A stretch of 64,000 nucleotides of DNA from Candidatus Electryonea clarkiae (GCA_030765455.1 JAVCCM010000168.1:1-64000), one strand, 5' to 3'. Shown: positions 51,903 through 60,932, counted from the stretch's first letter. The notes: generated by a model not told the origin, from the letters alone. Numbers and translations are program-made.

Positions 51903-52133
51903 ATGAAAGTAAAGACATCTATCACACTATCGAACCAGTTGATTGAAGCAATCGAGGAGTACGGTCAACCGTTTAAGAATCGATCTGATTTTATTGAGGC
52001 GGCTATTTGGGCATTCATCGATATGATTAAACGCGAACGGCAAAATGCTCGCGATATTAAGATTATAAACAAAAATGCCGACCGTTTAAACGCCGAAGCT
52101 CTGGATACGCTTGACTACCAGGTTCATCCGTGA
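51903..52133 (+). CDS. Ribbon-helix-helix antitoxin of a MazF-type toxin
   Basis: 76 residues from the ATG at 51903; the longer open frame upstream runs through the terminator and is not credible. [20 protein letters not shown] is the DNA-binding strand and first helix of a ribbon-helix-helix (CopG/MetJ) protein, [14 protein letters not shown] the second helix; the rest would wrap the toxin. It should repress its own operon and neutralise the toxin. Stop and toxin start overlap (GTGA, 52130-52133). Confidence 0.85.
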
Positions 52134-52456
52134 AACGAGGCGAACTTTACCGGGTGGCTCATCCGGGTAATGACCCAAAGCGATTCAGAGTATTTGTGAT
52201 TGTCAGCCGTCAAGCATTGATTGATTCGCGTTTTTCTACTGTAATCTGTGCTCCGATTTTCTCTACATATGATGGTTTGGCGTCTCAGGTCGCTGTTAGC
52301 ACCGACCAAGGTTTAAAACATAATAGCAGCATTCATTGCGACGAATTAGTGAGTTTACCTAAATCAGCGTTAACGAATTATATTGGGATGTTAGCGCCTG
52401 ATAAAGTAGAGGCGTTAGACGATGCAATACAGGTAGCCCTGGAATTACCGGGTTAG
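52130..52456 (+). CDS. MazF/PemK-type endoribonuclease toxin
   Basis: 108 residues from a GTG overlapping the antitoxin stop. [20 protein letters not shown] and [20 protein letters not shown], then [19 protein letters not shown], are the conserved strands of the MazF/PemK fold; the Arg after DP and the STVICAP Thr correspond to catalytic positions. These toxins cleave single-stranded RNA at short motifs. Gene order antitoxin-toxin and overlap are typical. A near copy of the upstream terminator follows. Confidence 0.9.
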
Positions 52457-52595: not shown

Positions 52596-52829
52596 ATGCC
52601 TGTTGCAAAAATCACTTCTAAAGGTCAGATAACCATACCGAGCGAGATACGAAAACAATTAGGTTTAAATGCCGGGGACAGGATCTCTTTCCAGGTACGG
52701 AATAACAGTGAAGTGTTATTCTACCCAGAAACAGTTGACGTCTTGACCTTATGTGGCGTCATCGATCCGGAGAAAAAAGGTGTTTCAATAAAGGATATGA
52801 ACGAGATAATCCGTGACCGGAGCATGTGA
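52596..52829 (+). CDS. vapB: AbrB/MazE-fold antitoxin (VapB type)
   Basis: 77 residues from the ATG at 52596, preceded by ggag at 7 nt. MPVAKITSKGQITIPSEIRK followed by LGLNAGDRISFQV is the swapped-hairpin AbrB DNA-binding domain; the C-terminal part (KGVSIKDMNEIIRDRSM) would bind the toxin. The open frame extends 20 codons further up through the promoter region and that part is rejected. Gene order with a PIN toxin makes the VapB assignment firm. Confidence 0.9.
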   Translation: MPVAKITSKGQITIPSEIRKQLGLNAGDRISFQVRNNSEVLFYPETVDVLTLCGVIDPEKKGVSIKDMNEIIRDRSM

Positions 52830-52831
52830 AC

Positions 52832-53236
52832 ATGATCGCCCTGGATACTAACGTCCTTCTCAGATTCCTGGTGAAAGATGAGGAGAAACAAAGTCAAATG
52901 GCTCGCAACCTGATTGAACGAGTCAGTGAGAAGAACGAATTTATATTCATAAGTGAAATTGTTTTATGCGAGATGGTCTGGGTGTTATCCTCATCAAGAG
53001 GTTATAATCTCAAGCGAGTGGAGATCGTTGATCTTCTAAAAATGATCTTTAATACAAAGCAATTTGCCTTTTCAGATGCTGACCGAATAAAAAATGCCCT
53101 GGAATTATTTAATAACAACAAAGGTGATTTTGCAGATTTCTTAATCAAGGAGCAGGCAATAGCAGCAGGATGTAAATACGTAGCAACGTTTGACCGGACT
53201 TTGCTTGCAACAGATGGTTTCAGGGAAGCAAAATAA
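52832..53236 (+). CDS. vapC: PIN-domain ribonuclease toxin VapC
   Basis: About 134 residues from the ATG at 52832 (a GTG at 52826 overlapping the antitoxin stop is the alternative; ggag lies 9 nt before the ATG). PIN acidic residues are visible: D5 in MIALDTNVLLRFL, the Glu in SEIVLCEMVWVL, and Asp residues in KGDFADFLIKEQA and VATFDRTL, forming the Mg site for RNA cleavage (often tRNA or 23S rRNA in VapC toxins). Complete and apparently functional. Confidence 0.92.
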   Translation: MIALDTNVLLRFLVKDEEKQSQMARNLIERVSEKNEFIFISEIVLCEMVWVLSSSRGYNLKRVEIVDLLKMIFNTKQFAFSDADRIKNALELFNNNKGDFADFLIKEQAIAAGCKYVATFDRTLLATDGFREAK

Positions 53237-53453
53237 AATTGACATTGTTATATAACGCTATGAGAAAAATTGAATAATATATCATCCATATCCATAAGAA
53301 TTCAGAGAAACCACTTTAGGTGACGAATTTGGATTCTTGAACCGTTGAAATGTAAAATGTAGCCATAACCTTAGGTTCATGCTGGTTTCAGAGAGGTGGC
53401 TGAGAAGCAACGCAAACAGTCCGAGTTACTTTTACCAACAGAAGGATTTCCTA

Positions 53454-56400
53454 ATGCTGCATTTAATCCCATCATTTATAAGTGTGCAATATGATAAGAG
53501 GCAATTCAAAGGGGACTTTCAAGCCACAACGATGTTCATAGACATTGCAGGATTCACCGCAATGACACAAGCACTGATGGTCAAAAGCAAGGAAGGTGCG
53601 GAAGTGTTATCTGACCTCATTAATAGTGTGTTCTCGCCTGCAATCAGCACTATATATGTATACGATGGTTTTATCTCGAGCTTTGCCGGAGATGCGTTTA
53701 CCGCCATTTTCCCGTCTGATCAAACATCTATAAACGATGCAGTCTCGGCAGCGATTCGCATTAGAGAAATGTTCAAGAAAGCAGGATTGATTAAGTGCAG
53801 ATTTGGTTCATTTGAACTATCCGTAAAGATCGGGATGTCATGGGGTCAAGTAGAATGGGGTATTATTAGGCACGAGCGTCAGAACGCCTATTATTTCATG
53901 GGGAAAGCGATTGATCAATGCGCCGAAAGTGAGCATCACGCAGATAAAGGAGAGGTGATCCTCGATAATGAAATATTGCCCCAAATTTCTAATTTATCTG
54001 AGTTGACTTATCTAAAGAGGAATGATCGTTTTTATCTACTTCGGTCTGCACCTGTAACTTCAGTTAAAGATGTCATATTCGCGATCATTCCCACCAGCCA
54101 AGACAAATTCATCCCAGAAAATATCCTCACCCTGAATAGCCAAGGTGAGTTCAGAAACATTGTCTCCTGTTTTATATCCTTTAAAAGTTATGACTTGTCT
54201 GAAGATATTGCCAGCATTATTACTTTGGCACATCGCTACAAGGGATATTTTAACAAGGTTGATTTCGGTGACAAGGGTGGTGTGATACTTGTTCTGTTCG
54301 GTACACCCAAAGGTATGTCGAATCTATTTAGTCGTTCATTAGATTTTGCCATGGCCGTAAAAGAAATTCCTGAATTATCCGTGCGAATCGGTCTGGCTGT
54401 GGGAGTAGGCTTCACCGGATTCATCGGGAGTGAGGTACGCAGTGAATATACTGCATTAGGTTCTGTTGTGAACCTGTCAGCGAGGTTCATGATGGAGGCG
54501 GGTTGGGGTGAAGTCTTCATTGATGAGCAAATTCATAAGCAAGCTGATGCACGGTATAAAATATTAGCATCGGAACCGCGGCATTTCAAGGGATTCGAAG
54601 GTGAAATCCCCGTCTATCGGGTAACAGAACGCAATGAACAGGTTCTCGTTACTTTATTCGAAGGGGAGATGGTAGGCCGCGATGAGGAGTTGAAACGATT
54701 AGTAGAGTTATTGCAGCCAGTAAAAGAGAAGAAGTTTGGTGGTATAGTATATGTCTATGGTGATGCTGGCATCGGTAAATCACGACTGATCTACGAACTG
54801 ATCAAGCAACAAGACATCTTGACCTTGACATTGCAGACAGATGATATCCTCCAGAAGGGTTTGAATCCATTCACATACTTTTTCAGTAACTACTTTGAGC
54901 TGTATGAGGCTCGTTCCTTCGAAGAGCGGAAAGAAATTTTCAAGACAAATTATGAAAAGCATTTTAAACGTATAGAAAACAGCCTAAATGTCGATGGCAG
55001 GACGAAACCTGTTATTAATAAACTGCGGCGAATTGAATCGATTATCGGAGCCATCATCGGACTATTCTGGGATGGATCAATTTACGACATGATGGATCCT
55101 AACGATCGATCAGTGGCGACTAGATTAGCGATTAAGGAGTTCTTTACCACCCTCAGTCTCGTAGAGCCAATTATAATACACGTGGAGGACTTTCAGTGGT
55201 TGGATGGTGAATCACAAACAGTCTTTGAAATCCTTACCCGCCACATTGAAAACTTTCCTCTACTAATTCTTGCTTCCGGTCGTTTAAATGACGATGGATC
55301 CAAGCCTGAGATACCTGCAGATGAGAATATTATGTGTCATGAAATCATTCTTAATCAACTGTCGCAGGATTCAATAAGTGTTTTGATCGCAGATCGCTTG
55401 GGTGATAAACCGGATAATAACCTGACTGCCTATTTATTTTCACGGACGGAGGGTAACCCGTTCTATGCCGAACAGTTATGTCTCTATCTGCAGGAAAATA
55501 ATCTTATTGTACTGCATAAGGGACGATACCAATTGATGGCGGCGCCTGCTGACATTCCAACAGGAATCACTGAAATCCTTATCGCACGGATTGACCGGTT
55601 GACAAGAGTGTTGAAGGAAACAGTGCAGATCGCATCAGTATTGGGACGTGAGTTCGAGGTACAAGTGCTTGCAGTACTGATAGACATGCTGACCTCAAAG
55701 GCGACGGAAGAGGAATCATCGCTTCACGGCTGTGAAATCCATCCATTGATTTTCGAAGGCGAGGTGGAGCGAGTTTGGGTACGCTTGGCGGAACTGCGGT
55801 GCATCTTCCGCCATGTCCTAATACGCGATACGGCGTATGATATGCAGTTAAGGAAAAAACTTAGGTTTCTTCATAAATTGGCTGGTGATACCATTGTAAA
55901 ACTGTATTATGATAACAGGATATTCTATTCGGACATAGCATACCATTATGAACAAGCGGAAGTGTGGAATCTGGCACTTAAATATTGTCTCAGCGCAGGA
56001 GATTATTTCAAAGAAATAATAAAATATGATGAAGCCTTAGTCTATTTCCAGAAAGCATTGTCAATCTGTCAAGAGAGATTGAAGGAGAAACATCCGTATA
56101 CAGCTACTTCATACAATAACATTGGAGAAGTATTTCGACAGAAAGGCGCCGATGAGGAGGCTATGAGCTATCATGAAAAAGCGCTTGCCATCAGGAAAGA
56201 ATTATTGGGTGAAAAACATCCGGATACAGCGCAATCTTACAATAACATCGGACTCGTCTATCATAGCAAAGGCCACTATGACAAAGCTCTAAGATACCAT
56301 GAAAAAGCACTTGCCATCAGGAAAGAATTATTAGGCGAGAAACATCAAGATACGGCACTTTCATATAATAACATTGGAGCAGTATATCGCCAGGATGGCA

Positions 56401-57323
56401 AATACGATAAGGCTCTAGAATACTACGAGAAAGCACTTCATGTCTGGGAAGAGGTGTTGGTGGAGAAACATCCATATACGGCTACTTCATTCAATAACAT
56501 CGGTGATTTATATCGTCAGAAAGGCCAATATGACATTGCATTTAGATACTTTGAAAAAGCACTTACCATCTGGGAAGAGGTGTATGGCAAGAAACATACG
56601 GAAACGGCCAATTGCTACAATAACATAGGAGGCGACTATAATAGTAAAGGCGACTATGACGAGGCTCTAAAATACTACAAAAAAGCACTAGCTATCAGAA
56701 AAGAATTGTTGGGCGAAAACCATCCAAGTACAGCGCAATCTTACAATAACATCGGACTTGCATATATTAATAAGGGCAACTATGACAAGGCTCTAAGATA
56801 CCTAGAAAATGCGCTTGCAGTCTGGGAGGAGGTGTGGAGTGAAAAACATCCCTCTACGGCATTTTCCTACAATAACATCGGAGGTGTCTATCATAGCAAA
56901 GGCCACTATGACAAGGCTCTAAGATACCATGAAAAAGCGCTTGCCATCAGGAAAGAATTATTGGGTGAAAAACATCCGGATACAGCGCAATCTTACAATA
57001 ACATCGGACTCGTCTATCATAGCAAAGGCCACTATGACAAGGCTCTAAGATACCATGAAAAAGCACTTGCCATCAGGAAAGAATTATTAGGCGAGAAACA
57101 TCCGGATACAGCACAATCGCTGGCAAACATCGCATCAGAGTATTTTTCCCAAGGGAGATACCGGAAAGCGGAGCCACTCGTTAAAAGAGCTCTAGCTATA
57201 TGCGAGGACTCGCTTGGAGCAAACCATACTTATACGAAAACAGTGATGAATAATATGGTCATGATGTATGAAAGTATGGGCAATAAAGCGGAAGCGAATA
57301 AGATTCGGATGCGGATATTGTAG
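53454..57323 (+). CDS. Soluble-adenylyl-cyclase-like protein: two cyclase domains, NTPase, TPR array
   Basis: 1289 residues from the ATG at 53454, which follows gaagga and starts like other members (MLHLIPSFI); 25 more codons are open upstream. Cyclase domain 1 (about 15-200) has both metal Asp residues, D30 in MFIDIAGFTAMT and D80 in SFAGDAFTAIF. Cyclase domain 2 (about 225-390) has K268 (NKVDFGDKGG), N340 and R344 (GSVVNLSARFM), the substrate and transition-state residues. An AAA/STAND NTPase follows with Walker A G436-S443 (GDAGIGKS) and a Walker B-like IIIHVEDFQWLD. From about 850 to the end there are ten 42-residue kinesin-light-chain TPRs. Same domain order as mammalian sAC. Expected to make cAMP (or cGMP) from a single chain; the signal is unknown. 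Confidence 0.88.
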   Translation: MLHLIPSFISVQYDKRQFKGDFQATTMFIDIAGFTAMTQALMVKSKEGAEVLSDLINSVFSPAISTIYVYDGFISSFAGDAFTAIFPSDQTSINDAVSAAIRIREMFKKAGLIKCRFGSFELSVKIGMSWGQVEWGIIRHERQNAYYFMGKAIDQCAESEHHADKGEVILDNEILPQISNLSELTYLKRNDRFYLLRSAPVTSVKDVIFAIIPTSQDKFIPENILTLNSQGEFRNIVSCFISFKSYDLSEDIASIITLAHRYKGYFNKVDFGDKGGVILVLFGTPKGMSNLFSRSLDFAMAVKEIPELSVRIGLAVGVGFTGFIGSEVRSEYTALGSVVNLSARFMMEAGWGEVFIDEQIHKQADARYKILASEPRHFKGFEGEIPVYRVTERNEQVLVTLFEGEMVGRDEELKRLVELLQPVKEKKFGGIVYVYGDAGIGKSRLIYELIKQQDILTLTLQTDDILQKGLNPFTYFFSNYFELYEARSFEERKEIFKTNYEKHFKRIENSLNVDGRTKPVINKLRRIESIIGAIIGLFWDGSIYDMMDPNDRSVATRLAIKEFFTTLSLVEPIIIHVEDFQWLDGESQTVFEILTRHIENFPLLILASGRLNDDGSKPEIPADENIMCHEIILNQLSQDSISVLIADRLGDKPDNNLTAYLFSRTEGNPFYAEQLCLYLQENNLIVLHKGRYQLMAAPADIPTGITEILIARIDRLTRVLKETVQIASVLGREFEVQVLAVLIDMLTSKATEEESSLHGCEIHPLIFEGEVERVWVRLAELRCIFRHVLIRDTAYDMQLRKKLRFLHKLAGDTIVKLYYDNRIFYSDIAYHYEQAEVWNLALKYCLSAGDYFKEIIKYDEALVYFQKALSICQERLKEKHPYTATSYNNIGEVFRQKGADEEAMSYHEKALAIRKELLGEKHPDTAQSYNNIGLVYHSKGHYDKALRYHEKALAIRKELLGEKHQDTALSYNNIGAVYRQDGKYDKALEYYEKALHVWEEVLVEKHPYTATSFNNIGDLYRQKGQYDIAFRYFEKALTIWEEVYGKKHTETANCYNNIGGDYNSKGDYDEALKYYKKALAIRKELLGENHPSTAQSYNNIGLAYINKGNYDKALRYLENALAVWEEVWSEKHPSTAFSYNNIGGVYHSKGHYDKALRYHEKALAIRKELLGEKHPDTAQSYNNIGLVYHSKGHYDKALRYHEKALAIRKELLGEKHPDTAQSLANIASEYFSQGRYRKAEPLVKRALAICEDSLGANHTYTKTVMNNMVMMYESMGNKAEANKIRMRIL
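56172..57102 (+). repeat. Near-identical 175-bp copies within the TPR array
   Basis: 56172-56346 and 56928-57102 match at all but one base by my reading and are exactly 756 bp (six TPR units) apart. Units between them are more diverged, so a recent internal duplication or gene conversion copied one block. Confidence 0.8.
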
Positions 57324-57550: not shown

Positions 57551-58606
57551 TCAATAGAATTTTCGTTTTATCCAAAACGCTACATTGACCAATCCTATCA
57601 TAACCGGTACTTCAACCAGTGGACCGATCACTGCGGCGAAAGCGGCTCCTGAATGCAATCCGAATACTCCTATTGCTACTGCAATTGCCAGCTCAAAATT
57701 ATTTGAGGCGGCGGTGAACGAAAGAGACACGGTTTTCGGATAGTCCACCTTGGATTTTATTCCGATGAAAAAGGTTATAAGGAACATCAGCACAAAATAA
57801 ATCAGTAAGGGAATTGCTATCCTGATAACATCCATAGGAAGTTCGATGATCTTATCGCCTTTTAAGGAAAACATGATGACTATAGTGAAGAGCAGCGCTA
57901 CCAGGGTGATAGGGCTGATCCTCTTTATAAAGACTTTGTGATACCACTCCTTCCCGCGAAGCCGCACTAATACCGTTCTTGTCAGGAATCCGGCGATAAA
58001 TGGTATTCCCAGGTAGATGAACACACTCTTGGCGACATCAACCATTGTGATATCCACCACGAAACTGCTCAATCCCATCCATTTCGGAACGACAGTGATG
58101 AAGATAAATGCATAGAATGAATAGAAGAAAATCTGGAATAGTGAATTCAAGGCAACTAAACCGGCGGCATATTCCGAATCCCCCTTCGCCAGTTCGTTCC
58201 AGACGATGACCATGGCAATACATCTGGCTAATCCGATAAGAATCAGTCCGGCCATGTAATCAGGGTAATCCCGGACAAAAATTATTGCGAGGACAAACAT
58301 CAATATTGGACCGACAATCCAGTTTAGTCCAAGTGATAAGCCAAGAATCTTGTAGTTCCGAAAGACCTTTCCAAGTTCCTCGTATCGAACCTTGGCTAAA
58401 GGAGGATACATCATCAAAATTAAGCCGATTGCAATTGGGATCGATGTTGTTCCGACTGACAATTTTGTGATAGAATGTGGAATTACCGGAGCCCATTTCC
58501 CAAAAACTACCCCGATTCCCATCGCAAGAAATATCCAGAGTGTCAGATACCGGTCAAGGAATCCCAGTCTTTTTCCTTTATTAGATTTTGTCATCTTTTC
58601 ACCCAA
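57551..58606 (-). CDS. acr3: Arsenite efflux permease ACR3
   Basis: 351 residues, about ten transmembrane helices. [20 protein letters not shown] at the N-terminus, [19 protein letters not shown] with the Cys needed for As(III) transport, and [20 protein letters not shown] plus [18 protein letters not shown] at the end are family signatures. It exports arsenite using the proton gradient. Last gene of the minus-strand ars unit, 28 bp after the mini-thioredoxin gene. The gap 57324-57550 shows nothing I can support. Confidence 0.93.
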
Positions 58607-58633
58607 ATTGTTTATGATGTATAATCGTTTGAT

Positions 58634-58879
58634 TTAGGTCAACCAACTCCCAATGGTATTTTTTTTTGGAATCCTGCCTCTTGATACTATTTCACCATCA
58701 ACAGCAACACCAGGTGTTGAAAGTATCCCCTTCGCAGCAATTTGGGAAATATCAGTGATTTTGGTCAACTCATAATCCTGACCTTCTTTCAATCCTTTCT
58801 CCTGAGCGACTTTATGAATTATGTCTGCCGTCTTTTTACATTTAGGACAACCCGGTCCAAAAACCTCAATTTTCTTCAT
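58634..58879 (-). CDS. Small thioredoxin-fold protein with CPKC motif
   Basis: 81 residues from the second of two adjacent ATGs (58879; the first, 58882, is too close to aagagg). KKIEVFGPGCPKCKKTADII holds the redox pair, followed by GILSTPGVAVDGEIVSRGRI with the cis-Pro. This is the redox-active disulfide protein 2 family, often found in ars and metal operons, where it may recycle a disulfide or pass electrons to an arsenate reductase; no arsC is present here. Confidence 0.85.
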   Translation of the reverse strand: MKKIEVFGPGCPKCKKTADIIHKVAQEKGLKEGQDYELTKITDISQIAAKGILSTPGVAVDGEIVSRGRIPKKNTIGSWLT

Positions 58880-58908
58880 CATATCCTCTTGTATATCTAT
58901 GGTATAAA

Positions 58909-59403
58909 CTAATCCTGTTCGAACCTGTCATCTGCTCTTCCGGGGACTGTCCGGTATCCTGATTCTTCCAACCAGCCGAACCGCGCGGCGGGATAGCAAT
59001 CGATCGATGGCACATAAGGCTTGATATCCAGCAGCGGTGTACCGTCCAGCATATCCACGTCCTCAACCTGGAGAAGGTTGTCTTTAATGCCAATTAACCG
59101 TACAGCAGAGATACCGATAGGGTTGATCCGGCTTGGCGCACGAGTTGCAAACAATCCCCGCGGCTTATCATCCATGTATGGAGTGATAATCATTTCCGGT
59201 TCTTTGCTCTTGTGAAACCAGTAGATCAACCAGATCCGCTCGAAGCCCTCGAGATCTTTTAATGCCGTTGCATATTCCGGCGCGACATCTACTGTTCCCC
59301 TAATTCCTTTTGCTTTGAAAGGCTGGATCGGTGTGCCTTCTGACACTTTGTGGGGAGTTCTTATCACACCAATCGACCGCCATTGATTCTGTATCATACT
59401 CAT
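58909..59403 (-). CDS. trmO: TrmO/TsaA-family methyltransferase
   Basis: 164 residues. SIGVIRTPHKVSEGTPIQPF, GFERIWLIYWFHKS, RGLFATRAPSRINPIGISAV, VEDVDMLDGTPLLDIKPYVP and the ending GWLEESG are the conserved blocks of TrmO, which uses SAM to N6-methylate t6A37 in threonyl tRNA. It overlaps the permease gene by 4 bp and lies inside the arsenic unit, so a resistance-linked methyltransferase role is possible but unproven. C-terminal Pro/Arg/Glu-rich tail is short. Confidence 0.85.
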   Translation of the reverse strand: MSMIQNQWRSIGVIRTPHKVSEGTPIQPFKAKGIRGTVDVAPEYATALKDLEGFERIWLIYWFHKSKEPEMIITPYMDDKPRGLFATRAPSRINPIGISAVRLIGIKDNLLQVEDVDMLDGTPLLDIKPYVPSIDCYPAARFGWLEESGYRTVPGRADDRFEQD

Positions 59404-60509
59404 CCGGCAAACCTCCCGAAAATCATACCAACAAAAGTGGAAAGAACCACTACCAGAACAACGTAAACCGCCGTCCGTTTTACGCCCATCACCCTTCCAA
59501 TCACGATCATATTTGGCAGGCTGAGTGAGGGTCCGGCAAGCAGCAGGGTTAATGCCGGTCCCCTGCCCATCCCAAGGTCCATCAGCGCTCGGACAATTGG
59601 TACTTCGGTAAGAGTCGAAAAATACATTAATGCCCCGAACACGCTGGCAAGCAGGTTGTTCCAGATACTGTTACCCCCGACCCAGCGTTGAACAACCGGC
59701 TCGGGCAGCAAAACTTTTATCATCCCCGCAACGAATACCCCGATGAGCAGGATGGGAACTATCTTCTTAACCAGACTCCAGGTTTCCTGCATCCACAATG
59801 CCACCTCGTTTCCAGAGTACCAGCGAACCACCATGATTATAACCGCTGCTAAGAAAACAACAGAAATTAATGCTGGAACAGGTTTTCCTTCGAAAATCAT
59901 TGACCATCGTCCGGATTCTGCCCGTGTCAATTCGACAACTAAGCCAATTGAAGAAGCCGCAACCAGGAATATGACCATTGCGGCGAAATAGGGGATAATC
60001 CGGCTAAGGGGATGGGAACCATCGTCTTCATCTTCCCCATACGCCCAATCAGTGTTTTCCGCATATAGTTTCTCTTCCTGCTTACGGAAGATGACTGCCA
60101 TTATTAAGCCGATAACGACCGAGAAAGAGATAGCACCTACAGCGCGGGCTATGCCTATGTCAAAACCAAGAAGTTGTGCAGAGTAAATGATCGCCAGGAC
60201 ATTTATCGCCGGTCCGGAATAGAGAAATGCGATAGCAGGTCCCAAGCCCGCTCCCCGCTGACGAATTCCCGCGAACAGGGGAAGAATAGTACAGGAACAG
60301 ACTGCAAGGATAGCTCCAGATAAAGAGGCGACAGTATAGGAAAGCCACCGTTTCGCCCTGGGTCCGAAATAACGGATCACGGCGGTCTGGCTTACAAAAA
60401 CTGCGATTGCACCGGCGATAAAGAAAGCCGGCACCAGACAGGTCAGGACATGTGCTGACAGGTATTCAGTCAAAGCTTCCCATCCCGATAATAACAATTC
60501 AGTCAACAT
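59400..60509 (-). CDS. arsP: ArsP-type permease (DUF318)
   Basis: 369 residues with about eight or nine membrane helices and an acidic cytosolic loop near 160-185 (YGEDEDDGSHP). LAVCSCTILPLFAGIRQRGA and FLYSGPAINVLAIIYSAQL, repeated in weaker form as YFSTLTEVPIVRALMDLGMG and LLLAGPSLSLPNMIVIGRVM, mark the two-fold DUF318 permease family. ArsP members export trivalent organoarsenicals; others export different substrates. Position behind arsR and before trmO-like, thioredoxin and acr3 supports an arsenic role. An operator-like palindrome lies 14 bp upstream. Confidence 0.8.
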   Translation of the reverse strand: MLTELLLSGWEALTEYLSAHVLTCLVPAFFIAGAIAVFVSQTAVIRYFGPRAKRWLSYTVASLSGAILAVCSCTILPLFAGIRQRGAGLGPAIAFLYSGPAINVLAIIYSAQLLGFDIGIARAVGAISFSVVIGLIMAVIFRKQEEKLYAENTDWAYGEDEDDGSHPLSRIIPYFAAMVIFLVAASSIGLVVELTRAESGRWSMIFEGKPVPALISVVFLAAVIIMVVRWYSGNEVALWMQETWSLVKKIVPILLIGVFVAGMIKVLLPEPVVQRWVGGNSIWNNLLASVFGALMYFSTLTEVPIVRALMDLGMGRGPALTLLLAGPSLSLPNMIVIGRVMGVKRTAVYVVLVVVLSTFVGMIFGRFAG

Positions 60510-60522
60510 AATACAATGCCTC

Positions 60523-60544
60523 TATGCATGTGCTTGCATGAATA
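60523..60544. promoter_or_regulatory. ArsR operator candidate in front of the permease gene
   Basis: Imperfect palindrome tatgcatgtgcttgcatgaa + ta. Its reverse complement matches 60911-60932 at 19 of 22 positions. It lies between the arsR stop and the permease start, which suggests a second regulated promoter for the transport genes. Confidence 0.65.
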
Positions 60545-60559
60545 CAAAGAAAAAAAGAG

Positions 60560-60883
60560 CTACAAAGCTCCCGCTACTTCGCGAGCATGTTTTTGTGCGA
60601 GGTCCCGGAGAATGTCGTCAGCCATCTCCAGCAGGCGAAACACGCGGGGCTCTGCGATACTGTAGTAAACAGATACCCCTTCTTTCCTGGAACTCAACAA
60701 TCCCATTCTTCGCAGCTTAATAAGGTGACGGCTTACAACCGATTGATCCTCCTTCATTGCAGGATGAATATTACAGACGCATTTTTCTCCATCTCGCAGT
60801 TTATAGAGCAACTTCAACCGTGTAGGCTGTCCAAGTACTGTAAACAACTGGGATTCTATTTCAAGTTTTTTTGGATCGATCAT
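60560..60883 (-). CDS. arsR: ArsR-family metalloregulator
   Basis: 107 residues from the ATG at 60883 (MIDPKKLEIESQLFTVLGQP), preceded by gagagg; the frame is open ten codons further but overlaps the operator side. Winged helix: EKCVCNIHPAMKEDQSVVSR and HLIKLRRMGLLSSRKEGVSV. CVC in helix 3 is the typical As(III)/metal site of ArsR. It should bind the palindromes on both sides of its own gene and release on arsenite binding. First gene of the minus-strand unit ending at 57551. Confidence 0.9.
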   Translation of the reverse strand: MIDPKKLEIESQLFTVLGQPTRLKLLYKLRDGEKCVCNIHPAMKEDQSVVSRHLIKLRRMGLLSSRKEGVSVYYSIAEPRVFRLLEMADDILRDLAQKHAREVAGAL

Positions 60884-60910
60884 AAGAGAGCCTCTCAATA
60901 TTCTTAGTTG

Positions 60911-60932
60911 CATTCATGCATGAACATGCATA
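60911..60932. promoter_or_regulatory. ArsR operator candidate in front of arsR
   Basis: cattcatgcatgaacatgca + ta, with inverted ATTCATG / CATGCAT half sites. 28 bp upstream of the arsR start and twin of 60523-60544. It could also affect the divergent gene at 61149. Confidence 0.65.

Follow-up and report, generated by a model that had tools for sequence, protein, structure and literature searches.

The window analyzed here, a 64,000-nucleotide stretch of DNA from Candidatus Electryonea clarkiae, encodes on its plus strand a 1289-residue protein that resembles mammalian soluble adenylyl cyclase (sAC). The reading frame runs from an ATG at 53454 to a stop at 57323; the mechanical ORF start lies at 53379. 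Pfam assigned Guanylate_cyc to two stretches of the protein, AAA_16 to residues 406-605, and TPR_12 or TPR_10 to 9-10 stretches. The original prediction had described two cyclase domains followed by a STAND-like NTPase and TPRs. This plan holds on the basis of Pfam and the predicted folds, with about nine TPRs, and its residue numbers agree with the 1289-residue frame from the ATG at 53454. A promoter and terminator scan of the gap upstream of the gene found nothing. The features of the gene are the following:

53454-57323, plus strand: sAC-like cyclase gene, 1289 residues, C1-C2-STAND-TPR (open frame, Pfam domains)
53505-53987, plus strand: cyclase domain C1, residues 18-178, with Asp30 and Asp80 (Pfam Guanylate_cyc, phmmer to human sAC C1, AlphaFold2/Foldseek)
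53541-53543, plus strand: Asp30 codon, equivalent to human sAC D47 (invariant in 37/37 relatives)
53691-53693, plus strand: Asp80 codon, equivalent to human sAC D99 (invariant in 37/37 relatives)
54141-54638, plus strand: cyclase domain C2, residues 230-395, with Lys268, Thr333, Asn340 and Arg344 (phmmer to human sAC C2, alignment)
54669-55268, plus strand: NTPase AAA_16, residues 406-605 (Pfam, invariant G-x-G-K, Foldseek to Apaf-1, PH0952 and MalT)
about 54759-54782, plus strand: Walker A of the NTPase
55605-55808, plus strand: predicted winged helix within the STAND core, about residues 718-785 (AlphaFold2 secondary structure, boundaries inferred from PH0952)
55701-55736, plus strand: loop, about residues 750-761, matching the head/tail split site of the homologous Candidatus Hatepunaea gene (AlphaFold2 loop 355-366 of the second model, L038/L071 frames)
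55815-56078, plus strand: predicted arm, a helical link, about residues 788-875 (AlphaFold2 helices, arm definition from PMC6468293)
56088-57308, plus strand: TPR sensor array of 42-residue (126-bp) units (nine Pfam TPR_12 matches, TRF, unit alignment)
56169-56358, plus strand: 190-bp block of the TPR array, repeated with 97% DNA identity 756 bp further downstream (unit matrix)

The catalytic pair resembles that of human sAC

In a phmmer search of all PDB sequences, the best chain was human sAC, which matched both cyclase domains at E 1e-27 and about 23% identity, with other cyclases far behind. In the alignment, D30 and D80 correspond to human D47 and D99, K268 to K334, T333 to T405, N340 to N412 and R344 to R416; at the bicarbonate-site positions, S76 aligns with K95 and A157 with R176. 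In the structures of human sAC, these residues act in metal binding (the Asp pair), adenine recognition (Lys/Thr), the transition state (Asn/Arg) and the bicarbonate pocket (K95/R176). The metal Asp pair is confined to C1, the Lys/Thr and Asn/Arg pairs lie in C2, and both domains are arranged in tandem in one soluble chain. Among aligned relatives, D30, D80, N340 and R344 are invariant (37/37), and 34/37 retain K268 and T333.

Structure prediction of the C1/C2 pair for comparison with human sAC had been suggested as a check, and we carried it out. With the AlphaFold2 model of residues 1-419 (pLDDT 90.9, pTM 0.88) as a Foldseek query, the top 24 PDB places were all human sAC (E 4e-31 to 2e-27), and membrane cyclases followed at E 5e-19. 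The TMq to human sAC was about 0.8 over both domains, an agreement of the whole assembly. D30/D80 and N340/R344 are predicted to meet in one site, as judged from the residue alignment and the whole-assembly TM-score rather than from measured distances. In a maximum-likelihood tree of single cyclase domains, with four further cyclases from the host genome serving as outgroup, all C1 domains including the human one formed one clade (98/89) and all C2 domains including the human one formed another (100/98). Since C1s and C2s fall into separate clades, the C1-C2 duplication is older than the split between human sAC and the bacterial family, and is common to both, in a tree whose human branches are long and whose outgroup comprises four sequences. 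The complementary, sAC-like C1/C2 pair first proposed for this gene is thus borne out by the sequence match, the predicted fold, the invariant residues and the domain tree.

In such a pair, C1 would supply the two metal-binding aspartates and C2 the adenine-recognizing Lys/Thr together with the transition-state Asn/Arg, and the two domains would form one active site, most likely converting ATP to cAMP. We consider it very unlikely that the catalytic unit makes another cyclic nucleotide, such as cGMP, cCMP or cUMP. The base-recognition residues do vary in the family, with K268/T333 replaced by G/G in L039 and by V/D in L071, two relatives from the host phylum, but Lys268/Thr333, the sAC pair that most relatives retain, is present in the window protein. 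Because L039 and L071 have lost this pair, the substrate may nevertheless differ within the family. The host genome contains 12 cNMP-binding domains.

A STAND module and a putative TPR sensor follow the cyclase domains

A second AlphaFold2 model, covering residues 396-920, reached a pLDDT of 88.6, and its first PDB fold matches in Foldseek were Apaf-1, PH0952 (an archaeal STAND with a TPR sensor) and MalT. The GxxGxGK motif is invariant in the NTPase alignment, and we took a conserved GNPF motif to be the GxP of the STAND helical domain. By alignment and predicted fold, the STAND feature set is present: P-loop NBD, GxP helical domain, winged helix, arm and repeat sensor. The second model and its STAND fold matches therefore support the original prediction in so far as a STAND-TPR module capable of gating the cyclase is present. 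The C-terminal half of mammalian sAC is dispensable for activity, so gating of the window cyclase by its tail is not guaranteed. A predicted STAND domain has been mentioned for full-length mammalian sAC (PMC12802110). In STANDs with a TPR sensor, the arm, aided by contacts between TPRs and NBD, prevents the switch from opening before an inducer is bound (PMC6468293, PMC4381067); by analogy, we infer that the same autoinhibition logic may apply to the window protein.

Within the sensor, TPR units six apart are up to 99% identical at the DNA level (window 56088-57308). Together with the 190-bp block repeated at 97%, this points to units having been copied or converted recently inside the sensor. 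How near-identical the TPR units are varies widely among relatives, and the tail repeat period is 40 residues in most relatives of 1200-1400 residues.

Relatives are patchily distributed across bacteria

A search of 84,980 species genomes returned 80 related loci. The nearest relatives belong to Fermentibacterota (54-55% identity), followed in order by Atribacterota, Cloacimonadota, Neomarinimicrobiota, Coatesbacteria, WOR-3, Delongbacteria, Chloroflexota and Ignavibacteria, and the majority are fused into a single protein of about 1200-1430 residues. In the host phylum, which the names of relatives suggest is probably Electryoneota or a close neighbor, the clade of the window gene occurs in only 3/39 genomes, which suggests horizontal spread; in Chloroflexaceae, such proteins were found in 37 of the 41 genomes searched. 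Carriage on mobile elements was considered and rejected, as plasmid matches were remote (23-26%) and the cyclase had no match in 50,697 phage records. A second sAC-like clade (L041-L047; e.g., L042 7445-18258) sits at a constant location in several host-phylum genomes, in the order FAD-linked oxidase, cyclase, proline dehydrogenase, uvrB and purD (gene names assigned by eye). Members of this clade keep a Lys at the K95 position and lack the Arg at R176.

A split gene in Candidatus Hatepunaea

One relative is divided into separate genes. On the minus strand of a Candidatus Hatepunaea contig (L038 1082-10175, the contig shared with L071), a cyclase-NTPase head precedes four TPR-tail genes arranged in tandem. 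The 749-residue ORF of the head ends in the loop matching about residues 750-761 of the window protein, which places the split inside the predicted winged helix. The ATG of the first tail lies one base past the head stop codon and is preceded by a GGGGAG motif, and each of the three later tails starts with an ATG within the last codons of the previous one (ATGCCAAATAGC-type overlap). Each tail opens with the missing last winged-helix elements and the arm. The tails are 77-82% identical over their first 100 residues and 44-48% identical over the remainder. Their first 95 codons have a pN of 0.08-0.12 against a pS of 0.65-0.83, indicating strong purifying selection. Such low pN relative to pS marks these tails as functional genes of some age, not debris, and on this ground we rejected a reading of them as decayed copies.

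We found no further tail-cassette array among the remaining 38 genomes of the phylum, 42 Fermentibacterota genomes and 21 genomes from other relatives, so the head with four tails rests on a single metagenome contig. A break at a similar place in L083 is a probable assembly or frameshift error, since that contig is by its own name at very low coverage. The simplest reading suggested by the Hatepunaea array, in this one genome, is four alternative sensors for one head. We tentatively propose, as a possibility that we hold with some doubt, that the TPR tail acts as an exchangeable sensor module, present in some lineages as a separate subunit, the Hatepunaea head being completed in trans by any of the four tails. 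If so, Hatepunaea would have a cAMP switch with several inputs, and the window gene would represent its single-input counterpart, with head and tail fused.

The bicarbonate site

The original prediction had judged bicarbonate sensing unlikely because the position of K95 is Ser76 and the R176 region is not conserved. Both observations stand, with Ala157 at the latter position; the conclusion drawn from them does not follow. An Arg at the R176 position is absent in all 37 relatives and in every alignable Chloroflexaceae sequence. K95 and R176 are a trait of the mammalian enzyme and not of the wider sAC-type family, and, as no aligned bacterial relative has R176, we did not treat the absence of the pair as excluding sAC-type membership.

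It is possible, though on balance rather unlikely, that the window enzyme is a bicarbonate (CO2/pH) sensing cyclase like those of sAC and Chloroflexus, with a tail that serves only for localization or partner binding. The protein has a Thr at the adenine-binding position (T333), a residue that, in work of Cann from 2003, is said to mark a bicarbonate-responsive subset of cyclases. In addition, a Chloroflexus enzyme of sAC-like kind has been reported to be bicarbonate-activated (PMC11006738), and the alignable Chloroflexaceae members, which may or may not include the assayed enzyme, also lack the Arg at R176; absence of the K95/R176 pair therefore does not predict insensitivity. Against this reading, both residues of the human pocket are replaced (K95 by Ser, R176 by Ala), and no CO2-related gene adjoins the window cyclase. 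Formate dehydrogenase and FdhD-like genes, identified by eye, do adjoin the cyclase in two Chloroflexota relatives (L076 6208-9916, L080 26-5203), a possible link to CO2 that favors a bicarbonate response.

Genomic neighbors and an improbable role in defense

Two toxin-antitoxin pairs lie upstream of the cyclase gene and are probably unrelated to it:

51903-52456, plus strand: RHH-like antitoxin (51903-52133) and PemK/MazF toxin (52130-52456) (Pfam PemK; antitoxin by eye, no Pfam match)
52596-53236, plus strand: AbrB/MazE-type antitoxin (52596-52829) and PIN toxin (52826-53236) (Pfam MazE_antitoxin, PIN)

That these pairs are real, as initially described, is confirmed by the Pfam matches to PemK, MazE_antitoxin and PIN, together with the RHH-like ORF recognized by eye. 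The stress or defense role that had been drawn from them finds no such confirmation. No relative of the four toxin-antitoxin proteins was found in 62 related loci covering 908 kb, the neighborhoods of close relatives showed no recurring or fixed neighbors, and no PADLOC effector or receptor adjoins the cyclase in the window. The host genome has 8 PemK and 3 PIN genes in any case. We rejected the pairs as functional partners, and they look incidental. A single divergent MazF-like gene was seen by eye about 3 kb away from the cyclase in L079. Convergent with the window cyclase, an apparent arsenic-resistance cluster occupies 57551-60913 on the minus strand, with an SBF/ACR3-type transporter, a thioredoxin-like protein, a permease and an ArsR-like regulator, of which Pfam confirmed only SBF.

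An enzyme of defense (abortive-infection) signaling, acting with the adjacent toxins in the manner of a Pycsar cyclase or a bacterial NLR, is in our view improbable. The STAND-TPR architecture with its near-identical, recently copied units does recall NLR-type recognition, and the patchy distribution of the clade (3/39 genomes of the phylum) would suit such a role. PADLOC PycC profiles also match C1 (E 1.8e-14), though the matches probably reflect the homology of class III cyclases in general. Among the scanned neighbors there was no TM or TIR effector of the Pycsar kind that senses cyclic pyrimidines, and no cNMP receptor lies beside the window gene. We therefore rejected membership in Pycsar. 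The missing toxin-antitoxin relatives, the lack of recurring neighbors and the absence of any match among the phage records likewise speak against a defense function. Sigma-54 activators were found beside relatives and indicate transcription control rather than defense. In three Fermentibacterota, a TPR-sigma-54 activator of about 1240 residues (L061 6150-9872, L088 5912-9664, L162 12086-15820) immediately precedes the cyclase, and a cNMP-binding sigma-54 activator (L039 15594-17150, plus strand) lies 18 bp downstream of a related cyclase, probably as an enzyme-receptor pair.

Discussion

The domains, their fold, the conserved catalytic residues, the C1-C2 ancestry shared with human sAC and the STAND fold were all computed for the window protein. 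We consider it likely, from sequence and structural models, that the gene product is a soluble adenylyl cyclase of the sAC type, made as a single chain and probably STAND-gated, with both catalysis and gating predicted. The STAND switch (NTPase, winged helix and arm) and the TPR sensor would sit behind the catalytic pair. In the resting state we expect a closed, ADP-bound switch that arm and TPR contacts keep shut. Binding of an inducer to the TPRs could then open the switch, allowing it to exchange to ATP and oligomerize, and oligomerization might alter the packing of C1 against C2 and with it the activity of the cyclase. ATP as substrate, gating by ADP-ATP exchange, oligomerization and sensing by the TPRs are what we infer from the fold and residues.

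Bacteria commonly have the entire plan of human sAC (C1-C2-STAND-helical tail) in addition to its catalytic core; Cloacimonadota, Fermentibacterota and Chloroflexota are among those that do. What the C-terminal half of full-length sAC does is an unsolved question for which these proteins offer tractable models. In the split relative, whose four tails show purifying selection, the exchange of sensor modules can be tested directly.

Bacterial two-domain cyclases of the sAC-like kind have been published before and are widespread, a point missing from the original prediction, and the window gene adds one more. Kobayashi, Buck and Levin reportedly described such cyclases with long C-termini from Chloroflexus in 2004. 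Their study (doi 10.1007/s00427-004-0432-2) is cited in PMC11006738 and PMC3085406, and the latter also cites the 2003 work of Cann. The window protein shares with these a bacterial origin, two cyclase domains and a long C-terminal extension, but differs in phylum and in its tail repeats, and it is in Chloroflexus that a bicarbonate response has been reported. With the STAND ATPases MalT and PH0952 it has the NTPase, winged helix, arm and TPR sensor in common, whereas their effector is a DNA-binding domain and its own is a class III cyclase pair. Pycsar cyclases (PycC) have the same class III fold; however, PycC is simpler and is accompanied by an adjacent cNMP-sensing effector, which the window gene lacks. 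Mammalian sAC (ADCY10) has the same order of C1, C2, P-loop STAND and helical C-terminus, the same split of catalytic residues and the same C1-C2 duplication, and the window protein differs from it in being only about 23% identical, in having Ser and Ala at K95 and R176, and in its regular 42-residue C-terminal TPRs.
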